A stretch of DNA of 64,000 nt, taken from NCBI RefSeq assembly GCF_027497235.1, contig NZ_CP114902.1, forward strand, positions 930,001 to 994,000, in the 5' to 3' direction. Numbering within the stretch: the stretch's first letter is position 1; every line of letters begins with the position of its first letter. Below, one piece after another: positions 11,037-60,524 of this stretch. The notes below the pieces were generated by a model. The model was not told the origin of the DNA, made no database searches, and saw only the letters and a program-made list of their open reading frames with translations. The position numbers and the translations under genes were made by a program. This DNA is from Micromonospora sp. WMMD1128 (GTDB lineage: Bacteria > Actinomycetota > Actinomycetes > Mycobacteriales > Micromonosporaceae).

Positions 11037-12623
11037 TCACGCGGCGGCCACGGCCAGCATGGCGATGTCGTCGTGTGGGTGCCCGCCGAGCCACTCGTCG
11101 ACGAGTTGGAGCACCCGGTCGACGAGCGCGGCCGGTGGCAGCCCGGCAGCCGCGGCGAGCGCCTGCCGCAGCCGGTCGTCGCCGAACATGGCCGGCTCGG
11201 CGGGGCCGCCCCGAGCCTCGGTCACCCCGTCGGTGTAGGCCAGTAGCAGGTCGCCCGGGGCCAGCCGTACCTCCGCCTCGGCGAACCTCGCCGCGGTAAG
11301 CGCGCCCACCGGCATGCCGCCCACCCGGACCGTGTCGATCCCGCCGCCGGCGCGGACGACAAGCGGCGCGGGATGCCCGCCGCCGGCCACCCGGACCAGC
11401 AGCCCGCCGTCGGGTTCCCGGCTCAGGGTGCCGAGCAGGATCGTGGTGAACTGGGCCCGCTCGGCCGCGCCCGGCGCGTCCAGCAGCGCCCGGTTGAGCA
11501 GTTCCATCAGCTCCCGGGGGCGCTGCTCGACCAGGCGCAGGGTCTGCAACGACTGGCGTACCCGTCCGGTCAGTACGGCCGCACCGACACCCTTGCCGCA
11601 GACGTCGCCGAGCGCGAACAGGCCGCCGCCGGGGGTGGGGAACAGGTCGTAGAAGTCCCCGCCGATGCGCAGGCTGTCCCCGGCGGCGCGGTAACCGCCG
11701 GCCAGGGTCACGCCGGGCAGGCGCGGTAGTCGCGGCGGAAGCAGGCTGTTCTGGAGCACCCGGGCCAGGTGGGTCTGCTCGCCGTACAGCTCGGCGGCGG
11801 CAAGCGCGGCGCCGGCCCGCCCGGCGAACTCCCGGGCCAGTGCGATCTCCCGCTTGTCGAAACCAGTCCGGCCGGGACGGCGGGCCAGGATCAGCGCACC
11901 GGCCGGACCGCCGGCGCCGGGCATCGGGCTGATCAGCACGGCGCCCGACCGGCCGAAACCGGCCGGTAGCAGCTCGGCCAGGTCGGCCGGCTCGGCGTCG
12001 GGCCACGGGCTGGGCTCGGTGAGATCACCGTCCAGCGCCTCGACCAGAGCGGGGACGGACTTCACGGTCGGCCATCCGGCCACACCGGTGGCCGGTTCGG
12101 AGTCTCCGGCGGCGTACCGGACCCAGTGCGGCTCGTCCTCGGCCGGCGGCGGTGGTAGGTGCACCACCACGGCGGCGTCGGCCAGGTAGGGCACCGGCAG
12201 GGTGACGGCGGCGCGCAGCGTCTGCTCCCGGTGCAGGGAGAGCCCGAGCCGGCTGCCGGCCTGGGCGAGGAAGGCGGTGCGGGATCGTTCGGCGAGCAGC
12301 GCGTCGGTGCGTGCGCGCTCCTCGGTGACGTCCCGCACGTACCAGACGCGGCGCTCGCCGGCCAGCCCGCGCCGCAGGCCGTGCAGCCGCCGGCCGTGGT
12401 GCTCGGTCTCGAACGTGTCGGCGTCGTCGCGCGCCGCCTGCGCCAGCGCCGGCACCGCACAGGCGGCCAGGCCGACGCCGGGCACCAGTTCGGGCAGGAG
12501 CTCCGCCGCCGTGGCGTTGACGAGCGTCACCACGCCGGCCGGGTCGATCGCCACGACGGCCTCGGCCAGCCCGTCCAGCAGCTCGCGGGTGAGCCGCCCG
12601 TCGGCCGGTCGACCCGTATGCAT
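11037..12623 (-). CDS. PAS/GAF/SpoIIE protein phosphatase
   Basis: A 528-residue regulator with a PAS domain (residues about 10-110, LAEAVVAIDPAGVVTLVNATAA), a GAF domain (about 130-290) and a C-terminal PP2C SpoIIE domain. The phosphatase metal motifs GGDFYDLF, GDVCGKGVGAA and LLAYTDGVTEARG are all intact, unlike the neighbour at 9034. It probably dephosphorylates an anti-sigma factor antagonist in response to a small-molecule or redox cue. The ATG at 12623 is preceded by GAGGAG; the open frame extends 25 codons further upstream but begins in less conserved sequence. No anti-sigma factor or antagonist gene is adjacent. Confidence 0.88.
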   Translation of the reverse strand: MHTGRPADGRLTRELLDGLAEAVVAIDPAGVVTLVNATAAELLPELVPGVGLAACAVPALAQAARDDADTFETEHHGRRLHGLRRGLAGERRVWYVRDVTEERARTDALLAERSRTAFLAQAGSRLGLSLHREQTLRAAVTLPVPYLADAAVVVHLPPPPAEDEPHWVRYAAGDSEPATGVAGWPTVKSVPALVEALDGDLTEPSPWPDAEPADLAELLPAGFGRSGAVLISPMPGAGGPAGALILARRPGRTGFDKREIALAREFAGRAGAALAAAELYGEQTHLARVLQNSLLPPRLPRLPGVTLAGGYRAAGDSLRIGGDFYDLFPTPGGGLFALGDVCGKGVGAAVLTGRVRQSLQTLRLVEQRPRELMELLNRALLDAPGAAERAQFTTILLGTLSREPDGGLLVRVAGGGHPAPLVVRAGGGIDTVRVGGMPVGALTAARFAEAEVRLAPGDLLLAYTDGVTEARGGPAEPAMFGDDRLRQALAAAAGLPPAALVDRVLQLVDEWLGGHPHDDIAMLAVAAA

Positions 12624-12707
12624 GCTTTCGGTGCGCTCCTCGCTCGCGGACAGGTTGCCTGACTGCAAGCGTACCGAGCAGGTGCGACGCCACCCCACGC
12701 CCGGGGG

Positions 12708-12763
12708 AAAGGAGGGGGCCCCGCTTAACGCCTCCGGTATAGGAGGGGACCCCGCTTAACACC
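12708..12763 (+). repeat. Intergenic palindromic repeat, copy A
   Basis: About 56 bases with two direct half-units, AGGAGGGGGCCCCGCTTAAC and AGGAGGGGACCCCGCTTAAC, separated by GCCTCCGGTAT. The same architecture recurs at 15313, 58707 and 59965. It sits between divergent genes and no promoter is evident in it. Confidence 0.9.
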
Positions 12764-12823
12764 GGGCACGGCGCGCCGGGGGGTCGTGGTGCGCGCCGGG
12801 CACAAGCCTGGTTGGCTGCCGGC

Positions 12824-14260
12824 ATGAGCAGCACCATGGTCTTCCGGCGCGGCAACGCGGCCCACCGGTTCTACAGCGTCGTGGTCTTCGTGGTGCTCGC
12901 CTCGCTCGACAACGTGGCGATCGGCCTGGTGCCGCCGCTCTACGGGCCGATCTCCGGCGCGCTCGGCGTACCCCAGCGGTTGCTCGGCCTGGTCACGGCC
13001 GTGAGCTTCCTGGTCAGCGCGGTGGCCGCGGTGGGCTGGGCGTACGTCGGCGACCGCACCAACCGCAAGCCGCTGCTCATGGTCGGCACGCTGATCTGGG
13101 CGGCCGGCACCGGCGGTAGCGCGCTGGCCGAGCGGTACCCGACGTTCCTGGTCGCCCAGCTCGTCGCCGCGATCGGGCTGGGGGCGGTCGGCTCGGTCGG
13201 GTTCTCCGTGGTCACCGACCTGATCTCGCCGCGCCGCCGCGGCCTGGTGATGAGCTTCTGGGGGCTGTCCCAGGGCGTCGGCACACTTGCCGGCACGCTG
13301 GCCGGCGGCCTGCTCGGCGCGACCGACTGGCGGCGGCCGTTCCTGCTGCTGACCGGCGTGGGCCTGGCCGCGACGGCGGCGTACCTGTTCACCTACGACA
13401 TCGCGCGCGGGCAGAGCGAGCCCGAGCTGGCCGAGGCGCTGGACGCCGGCGGCGAGTACGACTACCGGATCAGTCGCGCCGACCTGCCCCGGATCCTGGC
13501 CCGGCGGACCAACCGCTGGCTGATCCTCCAGGGGCTCACCGCCCAGGCGGCCTTCGGCTCGCTGGTCTGGCTGCCGGTGCTGTTCAGCCAGCGGGCCGAG
13601 GCGCAGGGCTACTCGGCGGCCACCGCCGTCGTGGTGGGCAGCGTCTTCGCCACCCTGTTCCAGCTCGGTGGCGTGCTCTCCATCGTGGGCGGCCTGGTCG
13701 GCGACGCGCTGCAACGGCGTACGCCGAGCGGCCGGGCGCTTGTCGCGGCCGTGGGGATTCTCGCGGCCGTGCCGTTCTACCTGGTCCTGTTCTTCGTGCC
13801 GATCCGGATCGACGTGCCCGACGGCGGCGGTTCCGGCGCGGTGGTGGCGGCGGTGCTGTCAAGCGTCCTCACCGAGCCGACGATCGGGTTGAGCCTGCTC
13901 ACCGCCGTGGTCGCGCTGGCGCTCACGTCGGCCAACTCACCGAACTGGTTCGCGCTGATCGCCGACGTCAACCCGCCCGAGCACCGGGGCACGGTCTACA
14001 GCCTGGGCAACCTGGTCAACGGCGTCGGTCGGGCGGCCGGCAACGGGCTGGTCGGGGTCGCGTTCGCCGCGCTGCGGGTGGCGTTCCCGCCGCCGCTGAA
14101 CTACGCGGTCGGGCTGGCCGCGTTCCAGTTGTTCTTCGTGCCGACGGGGGTCATGTACTGGCTGGCGGCCCGTACGTCACCCCGGGACATCGCGCAGGTG
14201 CACGCGCTCCTGCACACCCGTGCCGACCGCCTGGAAGCCGAAGGCGGGGGCCCCGCTTAG
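12824..14260 (+). CDS. MFS transporter
   Basis: A 478-residue major facilitator with about 12 hydrophobic helices and the loop 2-3 motif GWAYVGDRTNRKPLL. Loops show the central cytoplasmic segment near residue 200-230. The ATG at 12824 starts the conserved N-terminus. The substrate is not predictable; the sequence resembles uncharacterised spinster-like actinobacterial members. The 3' end is unusual: the codons for the last residues (EGGGPA) lie in a palindromic repeat and the TAG stop takes its G from the first base of the inserted IS; without the insertion the stop would be TAA at the same place. Confidence 0.9.
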   Translation: MSSTMVFRRGNAAHRFYSVVVFVVLASLDNVAIGLVPPLYGPISGALGVPQRLLGLVTAVSFLVSAVAAVGWAYVGDRTNRKPLLMVGTLIWAAGTGGSALAERYPTFLVAQLVAAIGLGAVGSVGFSVVTDLISPRRRGLVMSFWGLSQGVGTLAGTLAGGLLGATDWRRPFLLLTGVGLAATAAYLFTYDIARGQSEPELAEALDAGGEYDYRISRADLPRILARRTNRWLILQGLTAQAAFGSLVWLPVLFSQRAEAQGYSAATAVVVGSVFATLFQLGGVLSIVGGLVGDALQRRTPSGRALVAAVGILAAVPFYLVLFFVPIRIDVPDGGGSGAVVAAVLSSVLTEPTIGLSLLTAVVALALTSANSPNWFALIADVNPPEHRGTVYSLGNLVNGVGRAAGNGLVGVAFAALRVAFPPPLNYAVGLAAFQLFFVPTGVMYWLAARTSPRDIAQVHALLHTRADRLEAEGGGPA

Positions 14261-15303
14261 GGACTGTGTCGAAGTCGGTCACAGCCACTCGTTGATCGCG
14301 GCGATGTGCACGGTGGCCTCGTAGCGGACGGCGAGTTTGTCGAAGCGGGTGGCCACGGCACGGTGGCGTTTGAGGCGGTTGATGCCGCACTCCACGGCGT
14401 GACGCTGCCGGTACCGCTGGGGGTCGAAGGCCGGTGGCCGGCCGCCCTTGGACCCCTTCTTACGCCGGTTCGCGTCCTGGTCGGCCTTCGACGGGATCGT
14501 CGCGGCGATCCCACGTCGACGCAGGTAGCGGCGGTTGGCCTTCGACGTGTACGCCTTGTCGGCCAGGACCCGGTCCGGGCGGGTCCGGGGCCGGCCACCG
14601 CCGAGGCGGGGCACCCGGATCCCGTCGAGCACCGGGATGAACTGCGGGCTGTCCCCGCGCTGCCCGGCGGTCAACACGATCGACAGCGGCTTCTGCCCCT
14701 GCTCACATGCCAGGTGCACCTTCGTGGTCAGCCCACCGCGCGAGCGACCGAGCGCGTGGTCGTCCGGTTCGACCGTGACCCCGCCCGGCGGCTCGACCTG
14801 CAGATCCCCCTTTTACGCGCCCCCGCAGCGTGCTGATGCGCCCGAGCGACCGTCGAGTCCACCGACACGTCCCACACGACGCGTCCACCCCCGTCAGCCA
14901 GGGCCTGCAACACGGTCAGGATCTTCGCCCAGGTCCCATCGCGCTGCCAACGCCGGAACAGCGCGTACACCGCCGCCCAGGACCCGTAACACTGCGGGAC
15001 GTCCCGCCACGGGGCGCCAACCCGTACCCGCCACCGAATCCCATCAATGAGCTGCCGTTTCGTCCATGTCGACGGCCGACCTGGCCGACGCCCCGCAGGC
15101 AGCAACGGCTCCAGCGCCGCCCACTGTGCGTCGGTCAGGTCATGCCGCCTCGTCACCGCTAGGCTGTCCACGAGGTCTCCGGTGTTCGGGTTCTGCTTGG
15201 TCGCTGAACCAGATACCGGAGACCTCGCTACATCTCGAACACCGACACGCCAAGACCCTCACCCAACAACTCAAGCCCCGGGCACCGACTTCGACACAGG
15301 CCC
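14260..15303 (-). mobile_element. IS5-family insertion sequence, apparently complete
   Basis: The 1044-bp element has terminal inverted repeats of about 20 bases (left GGGACTGTGTCGAAGTCGGT, right GGGCCTGTGTCGAAGTCGGT, one mismatch) and encodes one transposase on the minus strand in two frames. It is flanked by TA on each side (14258-14259 and 15304-15305), consistent with the short target duplications of IS5 relatives. Both ends and both reading frames are intact, so it may be active and recently acquired. Confidence 0.93.
14279..15171 (-). CDS. IS5-family transposase, two frames joined by -1 frameshift
   Basis: The first frame (15171 to 14728) carries the N-terminal [16 protein letters not shown] and the first catalytic Asp in [19 protein letters not shown]. 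The second (ending at 14279) carries [11 protein letters not shown], the second Asp in [13 protein letters not shown] and the Glu in [14 protein letters not shown]. The frames are joined by a -1 shift at an AAAAGGGGG run near 14806-14815: shifting there restores [13 protein letters not shown] and the conserved HALGRSRGG upstream of LACEQ. This agrees with programmed frameshifting in this group of IS elements rather than with decay. The second frame starts at 14719 only if read independently. Confidence 0.88.
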
Positions 15304-15312
15304 TAACCGGTG

Positions 15313-15367
15313 GGTGTTAAGCGGGGCCCCCGCCTATGCAGAAAGCGTTAAGCGGGGCCCCCGCCTT
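15313..15367 (-). repeat. Intergenic palindromic repeat, copy B
   Basis: On the minus strand it reads as two GGCGGGGGCCCCGCTTAAC half-units separated by GCTTTCTGCAT, matching copy A in arrangement. Its edge abuts the alpha-glucosidase stop codon and its other half-unit forms the right arm of the hairpin split by the IS. Confidence 0.88.
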
Positions 15368-17006
15368 ACACCCACCACACGGTGACGTCGGTGGGGACGG
15401 CGGAGCCGTCCAGGGGGGCGCTGGACACCAGCACCGTCGCGCCGGCGGGCAGCGGCACCGGCGTCGCGCCGAAGTTGGTCAGCACGGTCAGGTCGCCGTT
15501 GGTGAACGTGAGCACCTCGTCGCCGGAGGAGAGGAAGCGCATCGGGCCCCGGGCCAGCGCGTGCTCGCGGCGCAACCGCAGCGCGGTCCGGTACAGCTCG
15601 TACGTCGAGCCGGGCACCCCGCGCTGCCGGTCCAGCGCGTACTCCGCCCACACCGGCGGCTGCGGCAGCCAGCTCGCGTCGGTCGGCCCGAAGCCGTACG
15701 ACGGGGCGTCGGCCTCCCACGGGATCGGCACCCGGCAGCCGTCCCGGCCGCGCTGGGTGTGCCCGCTGCGCTCCCAGGTCGGGTCCTGCCGGGCCTCGTC
15801 GGGCAGCGTGGTGTGCTCCGGCAGCCCCAACTCCTCACCCTGGTAGAGGTAGGCGGAGCCGGGTAGCGCGAGCATCAGCAGGCTGGCCGCCCGCGCCCGG
15901 CGCAGGCCCAGCGCCACGTCCGGCTGCGGGTCGTCGACGCCGATGCCGTTCATCCGACCGCCGGCGGTGGTCAGCCCGAGGCGGGAGGCGTGCCGGACCA
16001 CGTCGTGGTTCGACAGCACCCAGGTGGTGGGCGCGCCGACCGCGTCGGTGGCCTCCAACGAGCGGGTGATCACCGCGTACTGGGCCGGGGCGGTCCAGGC
16101 GGCCATCAGGTATTCGAAGTTGAACGCCTGGTGCATCTCGTCCGGCCGGACGTAGCGGGCCAGCCGCTCGGCCGGCTCCACCCACGCCTCGGCCACCAGG
16201 ACCCGCTCCCCGGGGTACGAGTCGAGCAGCCGCCGCCACTCGCGGTAGACCTCGTGCACGCCGTCCTGGTCCCACATCGGCGGACGCGGCTTGTCCGCCT
16301 CCTGGCCGGAGAGAATCTCCTGCGGCTCCTGCCAGTCCGCCAGGTCGGCCTGCTTGATCAGGCCGTGCGCGACGTCCACCCGGAACCCGTCGACGCCCCG
16401 GTCCAGCCAGAAGCGCAGCACGTCGAGGAACTCCGCGCGCACCTCCGGGTTGTCCCAGTTGAGGTCCGGCTGGCCGGTGTCGAACAGGTGCAGGTACCAC
16501 TGCCCGTCCGGCAGCCGGGTCCAGGCCGGGCCGCCGAACACGCTCTCCCAGTCGTTCGGTGGCTCGGCGCCGGCCGGGCCCCTGCCGTCGCGGATGACGT
16601 AGCGCTGCCGCTCCGGGCTACCCGGCGCGGCGGCCACGGCGGCGGTGAACCAGCGGTGCGCGGACGAGGTGTGGTTGGGCACCAGGTCGACGATCACCCG
16701 CAGGCCGCGGGCCTTCGCCTCGCTGATCATCCGATCGGCGTCGGCGAGCGTCCCGAAGAGCGGGTCGACGTCCCGGTAGTCGGCCACGTCGTAGCCGGCG
16801 TCGGCCTGCGGCGACGGATAGAACGGGGACAGCCAGATCGCGTCGACCCCCAGCTCGGCAAGGTGGTCGAGGCGGGCCGTGATGCCCGGCAGGTCGCCGA
16901 TGCCGTCGCCGTTCGAGTCGGCGAACGAACGCGGGTAGACCTGGTAGATGACCGCCTCGGTCCACCAGCCGGTGGCCGGGGCCTGCTGCGTCGCGTCGGT
17001 GTTCAG
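15366..17006 (-). CDS. Alpha-glucosidase (GH13)
   Basis: A 546-residue cytoplasmic GH13 enzyme that hydrolyses imported alpha-glucosides. N-terminal WWTEAVIYQVYPRSFADSNG, region I DLVPNHTS, region II GFRVDVAHG (nucleophile Asp), general acid Glu in VLVAEAW and region IV VLSNHDVVRH are present. It is the last gene of the uptake operon, 41 bases after lacI. No ATG, GTG or TTG exists in frame between the upstream gene and the conserved N-terminus; the best start is a CTG at 17006 with GGGAG 6 bases before it. The stop lies against a palindromic repeat. Confidence 0.92.
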   Translation of the reverse strand: MNTDATQQAPATGWWTEAVIYQVYPRSFADSNGDGIGDLPGITARLDHLAELGVDAIWLSPFYPSPQADAGYDVADYRDVDPLFGTLADADRMISEAKARGLRVIVDLVPNHTSSAHRWFTAAVAAAPGSPERQRYVIRDGRGPAGAEPPNDWESVFGGPAWTRLPDGQWYLHLFDTGQPDLNWDNPEVRAEFLDVLRFWLDRGVDGFRVDVAHGLIKQADLADWQEPQEILSGQEADKPRPPMWDQDGVHEVYREWRRLLDSYPGERVLVAEAWVEPAERLARYVRPDEMHQAFNFEYLMAAWTAPAQYAVITRSLEATDAVGAPTTWVLSNHDVVRHASRLGLTTAGGRMNGIGVDDPQPDVALGLRRARAASLLMLALPGSAYLYQGEELGLPEHTTLPDEARQDPTWERSGHTQRGRDGCRVPIPWEADAPSYGFGPTDASWLPQPPVWAEYALDRQRGVPGSTYELYRTALRLRREHALARGPMRFLSSGDEVLTFTNGDLTVLTNFGATPVPLPAGATVLVSSAPLDGSAVPTDVTVWWV

Positions 17007-57739: not shown

Positions 57740-57812
57740 TGCGCCCGGCAGGATTCGAACCTGCGGCCTTGGGATTAGAAGTCCCCTGCTCTATCCGCTG
57801 AGCTACGGGCGC
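57740..57812 (-). tRNA. tRNA-Arg (anticodon TCT)
   Basis: Minus-strand cloverleaf of 73 nt. Acceptor GCGCCCG/CGGGCGC, D-arm GCTC AGCGGATA GAGC, anticodon loop CTTCTAA (TCT, reading AGA), T-arm GCAGG TTCGAAT CCTGC. CCA is not encoded. Its 3' part is duplicated at 56741. The first anticodon-stem pair is a G-A mismatch. Confidence 0.95.
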
Positions 57813-57981: not shown

Positions 57982-58707
57982 ATGCTGCTCGACCAGGAAA
58001 CCGAAAACGAGATCGTCTTCGAGCTGTGCCAGCACCTCGGACGGTCGATTCTGCCGCTCGCCGGCTCGGCGCGACCCGGTGCGCCGGCCGGCACAGTCGG
58101 TACCGCCTTCTTCTACAGCGAGCTTGTCGGCACCGCCGACGACGGGGAACTCGCGCACGAGTGGCTGCTCACCGCCGACGCGCTGACCGACGGGGAGTAC
58201 GGGGAGATCGGGCTGCGGCCCAGCGTCACCGAGCCGGCCGAGGGGGCGGACGAGCCGATCGAGCTGCCCGGTTTCGCCGACTACTGGCTGCACCTGCCGG
58301 AGCTGGGGGTGGCCGCGATGCCCACCGGCGGGCTGCACGGCTACGCCGACGACCGGGGCTGGCAGTGGCGTACCCAGCAGGTGACCGAGGCGTTGGCCGC
58401 GCCGGCCGACGCGGTCGCCCGGATCGGCGCGGCGCCGGGCTCGGCGTTCGTGCTGGCCCTGGGCGTGGGCGGGGACGGGTCGCGGCCGTTGGAGGCGGTG
58501 GTCGAGCGGGTCGCCCGGGACGGCGACGGGACGCGGGTCACCACCGAGCTGCCGGCCGGGTACGTGGGCGCGCCGGTGTTCACGGTCGAGGCCGGGCCGG
58601 ACGGCGCACCGACGCCGCGCTGCCTCGGTGTGCTGCTGCCGGCCCGCGACGGCGCTCATCCAATCGCCACGTTCGACCGGATCCGGTCGGCGCTCGCCGA
58701 GGTCTGA
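57982..58707 (+). CDS. Chymotrypsin-fold-like hypothetical protein, probably inactive
   Basis: A 241-residue soluble protein. GTAFFYSELVG followed by EWLLTADAL resembles the beta-barrel start of V8/trypsin-like proteases, where WLVTNAHVL is expected; the His is lost. GYVGAPVF stands where G-x-S-G-x-P-V is expected, so the Ser is replaced. No signal peptide. Probably a pseudoprotease or a coincidental beta fold. Its stop lies in palindromic repeat copy C. Confidence 0.65.
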   Translation: MLLDQETENEIVFELCQHLGRSILPLAGSARPGAPAGTVGTAFFYSELVGTADDGELAHEWLLTADALTDGEYGEIGLRPSVTEPAEGADEPIELPGFADYWLHLPELGVAAMPTGGLHGYADDRGWQWRTQQVTEALAAPADAVARIGAAPGSAFVLALGVGGDGSRPLEAVVERVARDGDGTRVTTELPAGYVGAPVFTVEAGPDGAPTPRCLGVLLPARDGAHPIATFDRIRSALAEV

Positions 58708-58759
58708 AAGGAGGGGGCCCTTGTTAACGCCTCCGGTAGAGAAGGGGCCCCTTCTCACC
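58707..58759 (+). repeat. Intergenic palindromic repeat, copy C
   Basis: AAAGGAGGGGGCCCTTGTT, then AACGCCTCCGGTAGAG and a diverged second half-unit (AAGGGGCCCCTTCTC). Same order as copies A and D. Begins at the last base of the preceding stop codon. Confidence 0.88.
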
Positions 58760-58890
58760 ACCACCGGCGGATGACGGCCGGCAGCGGCCTGCCGCAGAGC
58801 GACGCCGCGTCGACCGACGGCGACCCGGCGCCGAGCGACCCGAGATGGTGGCCCGCGCGGCGGCGAAGGGGTGACGGCGGGACTGTCGGC

Positions 58891-59922
58891 TCAGCCTTCG
58901 GCGGTGGCGGTGGCGGTGGCTGGCTCGTCGGCCGGCTGGCGTGAGGCCGGGGGCGTGGGCTGCGGGTCGGTCGGGCCGGCGCGGAGGAAACCCTCCGCCC
59001 ACCGTCCGACCTCCACGAACACCTTCTCGCGTACGGCGGGACTGGACAGCGTCAGGTCGTGCAGCCCGCCGTCGAAGCGGGCCAGGGTGACGTGCCGGCC
59101 GAGCCGGGGCGCCCAGCGCACCATGTGCTCCACGTCGAGCACCGCGTCGGCGCCGGTGGCGCTGTCGTGCCACTTCGTGCCCCGGAAACTGCGGGTGGAG
59201 CAGGCCAGCAGCACCGGCACCTCGATGTCGAGCCCGGCCCGCAGCCGGCGCTGACCGGTGCGGATCGCGTCCAGCCAGCCGACCCGGACCGGGAACCCGG
59301 CGAGCGGCTTCCACGCCAGGTCGTACCGCCACTCGCCCCGGTGGTCGGCGTGCAGGCTCTCGCCGTACACCGTGCCCAGGCCGAACGGCAGGATGCGTTG
59401 CGGCGCCCGACGGCCCAGGCGGGAGACGGCGGCGGCGAGGGGTCGACGGACCAGCCAGGGAGCGTTGATGTCGAAGAAGGGACTGTTCAGCACGATGCCG
59501 TCGACCAGGCCGGCCTCGCGGCGGGCGTGCGCCCAGAGCGAGATGATCAGGCCGCCGGTGGAGTGGCCCATGGCGAGCAGCGTCTCGTGTCCCTCGTCGG
59601 CGCGGATGATCTCGGCGGCGGCGTCCAGCTCCGGGAAGTAGTCGCTGAGGTCGCGGCAGAAGTTCGGGGTCTGGTGCGGGAGCAGGCTACGGCCATACTT
59701 GCGCAGGTCGAGGGCGTAGAAGTCCCAGCCGCGCTCGGCGAAGAAATCGGCCACGTGGGTCTGGAAGAAGTAGTCGACGAAGCCGTGCACGTAGAGCACG
59801 GCGCGGCCGGTCGGGCGGTCGGCGCGCCGGCGGACCAGCGTCGCGACCACCGGCCCCTCGTCGTCGGTGCCCAGCTCGATCGTCCGCCGCTCGTAGGGCG
59901 CTCCCAGCACGTCCGGTTCCAC
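58891..59922 (-). CDS. Lysophospholipase-type alpha/beta hydrolase
   Basis: A 343-residue serine-aminopeptidase/monoglyceride-lipase-like hydrolase. LYVHGFVDYFFQ (oxyanion), MGHSTGG (nucleophile Ser) and FDGGLHDL (His) are present. The C-terminal 25 residues are Pro/Ala/Thr-rich. No signal peptide. The start ATG at 59922 precedes the first conserved strand. Likely acts on lipids or esters. Confidence 0.9.
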   Translation of the reverse strand: MEPDVLGAPYERRTIELGTDDEGPVVATLVRRRADRPTGRAVLYVHGFVDYFFQTHVADFFAERGWDFYALDLRKYGRSLLPHQTPNFCRDLSDYFPELDAAAEIIRADEGHETLLAMGHSTGGLIISLWAHARREAGLVDGIVLNSPFFDINAPWLVRRPLAAAVSRLGRRAPQRILPFGLGTVYGESLHADHRGEWRYDLAWKPLAGFPVRVGWLDAIRTGQRRLRAGLDIEVPVLLACSTRSFRGTKWHDSATGADAVLDVEHMVRWAPRLGRHVTLARFDGGLHDLTLSSPAVREKVFVEVGRWAEGFLRAGPTDPQPTPPASRQPADEPATATATAEG

Positions 59923-59964
59923 GACCGCGACGGTACGCCGCCAAGCTACCCGGCGGTAGGGGTG

Positions 59965-60043
59965 TAAGGAGGGGGCCCTTGTTAACGCATTCGGTAGAGG
60001 CGGGGGCCCCGCTTAACACTGACGGTTAAGCGGGGCCCCCGCC
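59965..60043. repeat. Intergenic palindromic repeat, copy D, with intact hairpin
   Basis: Starts TAAGGAGGGGGCCCTTGTTA and continues to GGCGGGGGCCCCGCTTAA (59999-60016), which pairs perfectly with 60026-60043 across a 9-base loop. This intact 18-bp stem is the model for the one split by the IS at 14260. It ends 31 bases before another terminator. Confidence 0.9.
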
Positions 60044-60070
60044 TAACACAGGTGAGTCGGCCGCGTGGGA

Positions 60071-60101
60071 CCCCCGCCCGCCGGCACCGTGCGGGCGGGG
60101 G
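60071..60101. terminator. GC hairpin terminator
   Basis: Arms CCCCCGCCCGC and GCGGGCGGGGG with a 9-base loop, just downstream of the HPF-like gene stop. Confidence 0.8.
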
Positions 60102-60113
60102 CGTACGGGGAAC

Positions 60114-60524
60114 TCAGGCGGTCTCGGCGTCCTGGCGCAGCGCGTCCTCGATCGGGACGGCCGGGGGCTGCTCCGTGGGGCGCAGGTGCTTGTTGTTGCG
60201 CGGCTCCTGCCGGGTCTTCGAGTCGTTGAGCTTGCGGCGCAGGTCGTCCCGGACGTCGTTGAGCGCGGCGTGCAGATCCTCCTCGGTCGAGGTGGTGACG
60301 ATCTTCTGCCGACCGGCGACCCAGCACTCCAGGGTCACCTTCTGGCCCCGGGCCTCGCGGTCCTTGACGGTCACCTCAAGCTCGGTGGCGTCGGCGTGGA
60401 AGCTGGCGAGCCGCGCGTCCAGGGTCGCGAACTGCTCGGCGATCCAGTTCCGGTCGCCCTGGGAGAACCCGGCACCGACCCGCAGGCACTCGGCCACGGT
60501 CGCGGGGTTCGCCACGGCGCTCAT
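60114..60524 (-). CDS. HPF/RaiA-like ribosome-associated protein
   Basis: A 136-residue protein whose middle (LASFHADATELEVTVKDRE, then GQKVTLECWVAGRQKIVTTS) has the beta-alpha-beta-beta-beta-alpha pattern of HPF/RaiA ribosome hibernation factors, with basic residues for rRNA contact. The C-terminal HPF extension is absent, so it is the short form. ATG at 60524 has GAGG before it; another ATG at 60584 would add 20 residues without a ribosome site. Confidence 0.8.
   Translation of the reverse strand: MSAVANPATVAECLRVGAGFSQGDRNWIAEQFATLDARLASFHADATELEVTVKDREARGQKVTLECWVAGRQKIVTTSTEEDLHAALNDVRDDLRRKLNDSKTRQEPRNNKHLRPTEQPPAVPIEDALRQDAETA

Follow-up and report, generated by a model that had tools for sequence, protein, structure and literature searches.

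REP/BIME elements that come with a RAYT carry a conserved GTAG or GGAG foot at the palindrome, ERIC elements are dispersed palindromes that sit at gene ends and overlap stop codons, and the uptake sequences of Neisseria form terminators where they occur as inverted pairs; uptake of this kind is not known in Micromonospora. Insertion sequences (ISs) that enter REP sequences are the subject of Tobes and Pareja (2006; PMC1525189), a paper that ties four of the seven copies of ISNm1106, an IS5-family element, to REP regions and places all copies of its type-1 elements in REPs. PMC3281130 describes IS427-group elements of Paracoccus with lengths of 832-865 bp and mostly 2-bp repeats, some of them with two ORFs and a frameshift motif. 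Structured transcript ends without U, as well as two-sided ends, are reported in PMC8269248, which maps transcript ends in Streptomyces clavuligerus.

The locus described here lies in a 64,000-nt stretch (hereafter the window) of the genome of Micromonospora sp. WMMD1128, which is a single contig of 6.81 Mb. Here, as in the REP-inserting ISs, an IS cuts a dispersed extragenic palindrome, but where the type-1 elements enter REPs with every copy, this one does so in two of 19, its main target being CTAG. The IS has in common with the IS427 group an IS5-family DDE transposase, two frames with a slippery site, a 2-bp duplication and inverted ends, but at 1044 bp it is longer than the Paracoccus members cited above. 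The repeat resembles REP/BIME in being a short palindrome with hundreds of extragenic copies that are single, paired or inverted and stand at gene ends, and it differs in that its units carry TAA stops, keep a strict 31-nt spacing and show no link to a RAYT in the genomes searched. With the I-shaped (U-tract-less) terminators of GC-rich bacteria it shares a strong hairpin past the stop codon and no U-tract; unlike these, one repeat family with a predicted role in termination serves many genes and overlaps stop codons. No description of a Micromonospora repeat of this kind was found in the openly licensed papers searched, which is no proof of its absence.

The reading that I favour has two layers, and I put the probability of the two together at roughly 0.68. 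In the first, an IS sits in the TTAA of a repeat arm between two convergent genes, the TA is duplicated, and the stop codon of the MFS transporter gene has changed from TAA to TAG. The second, a dispersed family of gene-end repeats with an end-hairpin role in part of the genus Micromonospora, is partly observed and partly interpretive. The features that matter for both are as follows.

12709..12760, plus strand: direct repeat dimer upstream of the MFS gene; in relatives another gene ends at this site, on the TAA of the repeat
12836..14260, plus strand: MFS transporter gene (PF07690, E 1.9e-40)
14241..14259, plus strand: left portion of a repeat unit, AAGGCGGGGGCCCCGCTTA, which the IS interrupts at TTAA; joined in M. 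humi
14258..14259 and 15304-15305: left and right copies of the 2-bp TA target duplication, based on the flanks and on the empty site in M. humi
14260..15303, transposase on the minus strand: IS5-family element, IS427-like, 1044 bp
14279..14719, minus strand: transposase frame 2, the DDE part (PF01609; NF033580 at 114.2 bits, cut-off 110)
14728..15171, minus strand: transposase frame 1 (PF13340; NF033580 at 118.7 bits, cut-off 110)
15316..15335, minus strand: repeat unit in reverse orientation, once the right arm of the stem that the IS has divided
15347..15366, minus strand: second repeat unit, 31 nt from the unit at 15316..15335
15366..16988, minus strand: alpha-amylase-family (alpha-glucosidase-like) gene, convergent with the MFS gene, start approximate (PF00128, E 1.4e-101)
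58708..58755, plus strand: further repeat pair
59966..60047, plus strand: intact three-unit copy made of a direct dimer and an inverted unit, with the stem formed by 59997-60016 and 60026-60045

The IS adds an ordinary new member to the IS5 family, and its assignment to the IS427 group was made by features alone. It ends in the inverted sequences GGGACTGTGTCGAAGTCGGT and GGGCCTGTGTCGAAGTCGGT. Frame 2 of the transposase is open back to a stop just ahead of the slippery AAAAGGGGG (start 14814, minus strand), where reading would pass from frame 0 to the -1 frame, and the two overlapping frames with this motif point to putative frameshifting. The WMMD1128 genome holds four near full-length copies at 99-100% identity and 12 weaker partial matches, and some match to the IS at E ≤0.001 was found in 144 of the 151 Micromonospora genomes searched.

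A sequence-only reading of the window had proposed that the IS lies between the two arms of an 18-bp perfect stem, that its first base completes a TAG stop that would otherwise be TAA, and that an intact hairpin elsewhere in the window allows the pre-insertion state to be reconstructed. The two 18-bp arms (14242-14259 and 15318-15335) are indeed perfectly complementary and are split by the IS; its exact position had to be corrected, as it is inserted in TTAA inside the left arm of what was a 20-bp stem, and not in the loop. The MFS gene stops at TAG (14258-14260), of which the G is the first IS base; its 3' end reads ..GGG GGC CCC GCT TAG, with the last codons (..EGGGPA) coming from the repeat. 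The nearest named relatives by MFS protein are Micromonospora humi (98% identical; locus L167) and Micromonospora sp. NBS 11-29 (97%). In M. humi the same codon is TAA, the flanks are joined and there is no IS; L167, L168, L169, L171 and L172 all have a TAA stop within that left arm, which a loop of 8-9 nt separates from the right one. The same joined, TAA-ending empty site also occurs in L098, L099, L106 and L108, and in L105 and L170 the stop is TGA, with the right arm changed to match. Most IS-less relatives thus bear out the predicted TAA, the intact hairpin was located at 59997-60045, and comparison with these relatives recovered the pre-insertion state directly: a 20-bp stem, as in M. 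humi, formed by AGGCGGGGGCCCCGCTTAAC and GTTAAGCGGGGCCCCCGCCT. Since relatives have the joined hairpin, the stem was whole before the insertion, and the IS entered the left arm at the TTAA close to the loop. The IS427-like element has transposed into this TTAA between the MFS and alpha-glucosidase genes. It duplicated TA and put TAG in place of the MFS stop TAA, and it parted the hairpin arms but left on the alpha-glucosidase side a right-hand dimer that can probably still fold. The TAAGG end of the unit at 15347..15366 provides the alpha-glucosidase stop TAA (15366-15368). The locus, for which the empty site is known, is a clean, datable example of an IS that alters a stop codon and splits a gene-end hairpin; the landing itself is ordinary, and the repeat family is of greater interest.

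The repeat unit is a palindrome of ~20 nt (AAGGMGGGGCCCCNNTTAAC) that mostly forms direct pairs with a spacing of 31 nt, at times joined by an inverted unit. Its 14-mer core has eight matches in the window at ≤2 mismatches, against a mean of 0.72 in shuffled sequence, and an 18-mer matched the genome 401 times at ≤2 mismatches, against one match for the reversed control. A model built from 34 seed units in 464 kb was run on 1.264 Mb of WMMD1128 and gave 102 unit matches in 43 clusters, the repeat split by the IS counting as two of the 43; ~550 units per genome is an extrapolation from these 102. Plain direct pairs make up 25 of the 43 clusters. Between successive units on the same strand the distance is 31 nt in 41 of 44 pairs and 30 nt in the other three, and in relatives (80 named loci, L167-L246) the spacing was 31 nt in 26 of 26 cases, though the letters of the spacer vary. 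The letters GC stand ahead of TTAAC in 81 of 123 WMMD1128 units and in 26 of 46 units of the M. humi stretch, so that the arms are partly strain-specific, which hints at possible homogenisation of the repeat. No pattern in repeat orientation along the chromosome was evident by inspection.

Relative to genes called by a simple script (1133 in all, with a coding fraction of 0.89), 20 clusters lie between convergent genes, 18 between tandem and five between divergent ones, and none lies inside a gene. The background of gaps ≥45 nt comprises 118 convergent, 346 tandem and 176 divergent ones, which gives a convergent excess (p 5e-5) and a divergent deficit (p 0.013) for the repeat. Among the 58 gene 3' ends that adjoin clusters, 48 lie ≤15 nt outside the cluster edge or overlap it. 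These 48 genes stop with TGA (32), TAA (11) or TAG (five), and TAA is enriched beside repeats when compared with other genes (11/48 vs 32/1040, p 8e-7). At the MFS/glucosidase junction, where 63 of 81 junctions were read and a locus with any unit match counted as repeat-bearing, TAA stops account for 22 of 42 in loci with repeat matches and one of 84 in those without; the genomes are related, so a p value is only a guide here, and L180 is counted as repeat-bearing with no unit at the junction itself. Comparison thus shows that the TAA at the repeat ends or in TTAA often serves as the stop codon. A further case lies upstream of the MFS gene: in L167, L168, L170, L171 and L172 the dimer is present and the neighbouring gene ends ..ARG* on the TAA of the unit, whereas in L173, L174 and L175, which have no dimer, the same gene continues for about nine codons to a TGA (read by eye). 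From this difference it follows that the repeat shortened the protein and gave it its stop. In WMMD1128 itself (12680-12760) that neighbouring gene has been replaced, and a remnant of about 12 bases, CACGCCCGGGGG, stands beside the dimer.

Whether the stem is conserved as a structure was assessed on nine junction sequences chosen from 18 loci with a match (19 looked at); the selection was made by eye and dropped near-copies, three-unit forms and matches to other hairpins. In the 20-bp stem, 98.3% of cells are paired and seven of the 20 pairs have changed on both sides. Four of the five measures were reached by none of 500 shuffles and the fifth, further pair types, by 52 of 500, and slid controls of the stem showed no two-sided changes. 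Folds of six stretches gave z values of -3.7, -3.8, -4.5, -0.25, -6.4 and -2.2. The value of -0.25 belongs to the dimer stretch 12700-12775; that dimer (12709-12760) lies between divergent genes, and its RNA fold is no better than shuffles. Of the junctions cut from stop to stop, 35 of the 42 without the repeat had z < -2, as did only 14 of the 21 with it, the latter figure partly because the stop lies inside the left arm. Some strong stem is thus usual at this junction whatever its sequence, as would be expected of an end-of-transcript signal. A scan for U-tract terminators found no terminator-like site at the intact hairpin (window 58600-60200), and in 11200-11700 of L167 it gave a single match at 11277-11295, away from the repeat. 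The classical intrinsic arrangement of a GC-rich stem followed by a U-tract was accordingly absent from the repeats examined, and the arrangement of I-shaped terminators, with a strong stem just past stop codons at operon ends, was seen, one of the six folds (the 12700-12775 dimer) being no better than shuffles. Rfam at gathering scores returned one match in the whole window, a tRNA at 57740-57812 on the minus strand.

The repeat is likely a stop-and-end module, which I read as a candidate bidirectional terminator or 3'-end hairpin that has no U-tract and donates stop codons. In RNA its units would form a strong hairpin at which transcripts coming from either side end or are protected. A terminator-like role fits what the sequences suggest of gene-end position, stem compensation and a strong stem at the junction in most relatives; the missing U-tract at the intact hairpin, the five of 43 clusters between divergent genes (the poorly folding dimer at 12709-12760 among them), the count of only 14 of 21 repeat-bearing junctions with z < -2, and the lack of the repeat family in most genomes of the genus count against it. 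The positions of the clusters would agree equally well with a role like that proposed for enterobacterial REP sequences, in which the repeat stabilises mRNA at the 3' end or bars RNases and transcripts end elsewhere, and strong GC-rich hairpins right after stop codons without a U-tract are what such a barrier would look like too. I nevertheless consider it rather unlikely, as two features suit a two-sided end somewhat better: the excess of convergent pairs, with 20 of 43 clusters, and copies that are two-sided and mirror-symmetric (L179). A RAYT-driven REP system was rejected: Y1_Tnp (PF01797) has no match in the WMMD1128 genome and is missing from 10 of the 12 repeat-bearing genomes searched, with matches in the other two and in four of 12 repeat-free ones.

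The other alternative places the repeat at the level of DNA, either as a selfish, small mobile repeat or as a binding site in 31-nt phase (about three helical turns), with termination incidental and survival at gene ends owed to insertions being least harmful there. Besides the constant spacing in WMMD1128 and its relatives despite the varying spacer, and the nine or so codons lost by the gene upstream of MFS at the repeat site, this draws on a patchy distribution. The exact motif GGGCCCCNNNTTAACGC matched 64 of 160 Micromonospora genomes, 52 of them with at least 10 copies (up to 244) and 12 with 1-8, and was found in none of the other 96, the reversed control giving two matches in all; variant units with TCGAC or TCAAC (e.g. 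in L174 and L176) escape this exact motif. In a draw of 200 genomes from the order, 12 of 23 members of the genus and none of 177 others carried it. Among 22 named relatives, M. humi, M. maritima, M. chalcea, M. phaseoli, KJ-029 and ATCC 39149 have 101-163 copies, and the motif is absent from M. parva, M. saelicesensis, M. lupini, three Salinispora and two Verrucosispora. On a tree of 71 of the 81 MFS rows, with presence scored on loci no longer than 21 kb, presence of the repeat changes 11 times (at least eight forced), against 18.3 times in shuffles. Recent MITE-like movement is not supported, since over ~400 kb compared with M. humi all 18 WMMD1128 elements with an orthologous site are common to both (one apparent absence was a false model match inside a gene, and for two elements orthologous flanks were missing). 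A clean target duplication or clean empty site of the repeat was not seen, the flanks of repeat-free orthologous sites being different. The latter applies to M. chaiyaphumensis, which has no exact motifs and where nine elements are absent, three are present by a loose test, eight lack orthologous flanks and one is a false match. The compensatory changes that preserve the stem likewise speak against a mainly selfish or DNA-level element, which I regard as a rather unlikely account. Elements at three further sites are shared with M. humi and NBS 11-29, and the element at 18122 of L165 is missing from M. chalcea, though that genome is repeat-rich. The MFS/glucosidase junctions of L174, L176, L107, L109 and L110, in repeat-poor genomes, have hairpins with TCGAC or TCAAC in place of TTAAC, which are possibly decayed or sister forms of the unit.

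A more novel and tentative reading is a portable gene-end module in some Micromonospora, in which lineage-restricted, 31-nt-phased repeats would bring stops on both strands and a two-sided transcript end, rewrite the last codons of genes, and be spread or homogenised by a non-RAYT machinery, with a protein reading two units on one face of the DNA; as a whole, I hold this to be doubtful. If one repeat family supplies the gene ends of whole genomes, a repeat would partly set which stop codon genes use, with which residues proteins end and where transcripts end in these antibiotic-producing actinomycetes. The repeat also offers a natural test of termination without a U-tract, as the same orthologous gene pairs come with the repeat, with an unrelated stem or, here, with a stem split by an IS.

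The sequence-only reading had also suggested that the hairpin is itself the target of the IS, and that the remaining copies should be searched for insertion near hairpins. Of 24 loci examined, five lacked one end, and the 19 with both ends read, which are related copies across the genus, comprise 15 CTA..TAG (among them the copy at 439217-440261), two TTA..TAA, one CTA..TGG and one TTA..TAG. The IS therefore prefers CTAG, and TTAA is a secondary target. Both TTAA copies are inside the repeat and come from different species: the window copy, and one in genome G035 (L341), which interrupts a direct dimer at this TTAA of its first unit. No repeat match was found near the other 17. In the WMMD1128 sample, the repeat holds 97 of 505 YTAR sites (about 19%), 85 of 150 TTAA and one of 172 CTAG, and two of 19 copies in the repeat are no excess over that genome's own YTAR share (p 0.56). 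The search thus did not bear out a preference for the hairpin, and targeting specific to it was rejected; that the IS recognises the hairpin is very improbable, even with the same TTAA of the unit occupied in the window, in G035 and, by a short derivative, in G087. The hairpin is an IS target in a weak sense only: with about 19% of the sampled YTAR sites falling in the repeat, targeting looks passive, and because more than half of the sampled TTAA sites are in the repeat and TTAA is a secondary target of the IS, the repeat is a passive landing place. Its TTAA is a recurrent and probably passive target. An IS end beside a repeat-like arm was found in five of 160 genomes, and on reading, three of these (the window, G035 and G087) are in the repeat. 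In G087, a third species (L356, about 1513-1593), an 80-bp element with the same ends as the IS occupies this TTAA in a dimer's first unit, with the right flank now CAAC. L355 has one IS end only and is not clearly in the repeat. G066, which lacks the repeat motif, carries a 164-bp element (L354, about 1513-1677) that has these IS ends and is likewise not clearly in a repeat; both this and the 80-bp derivative are MITE-like.
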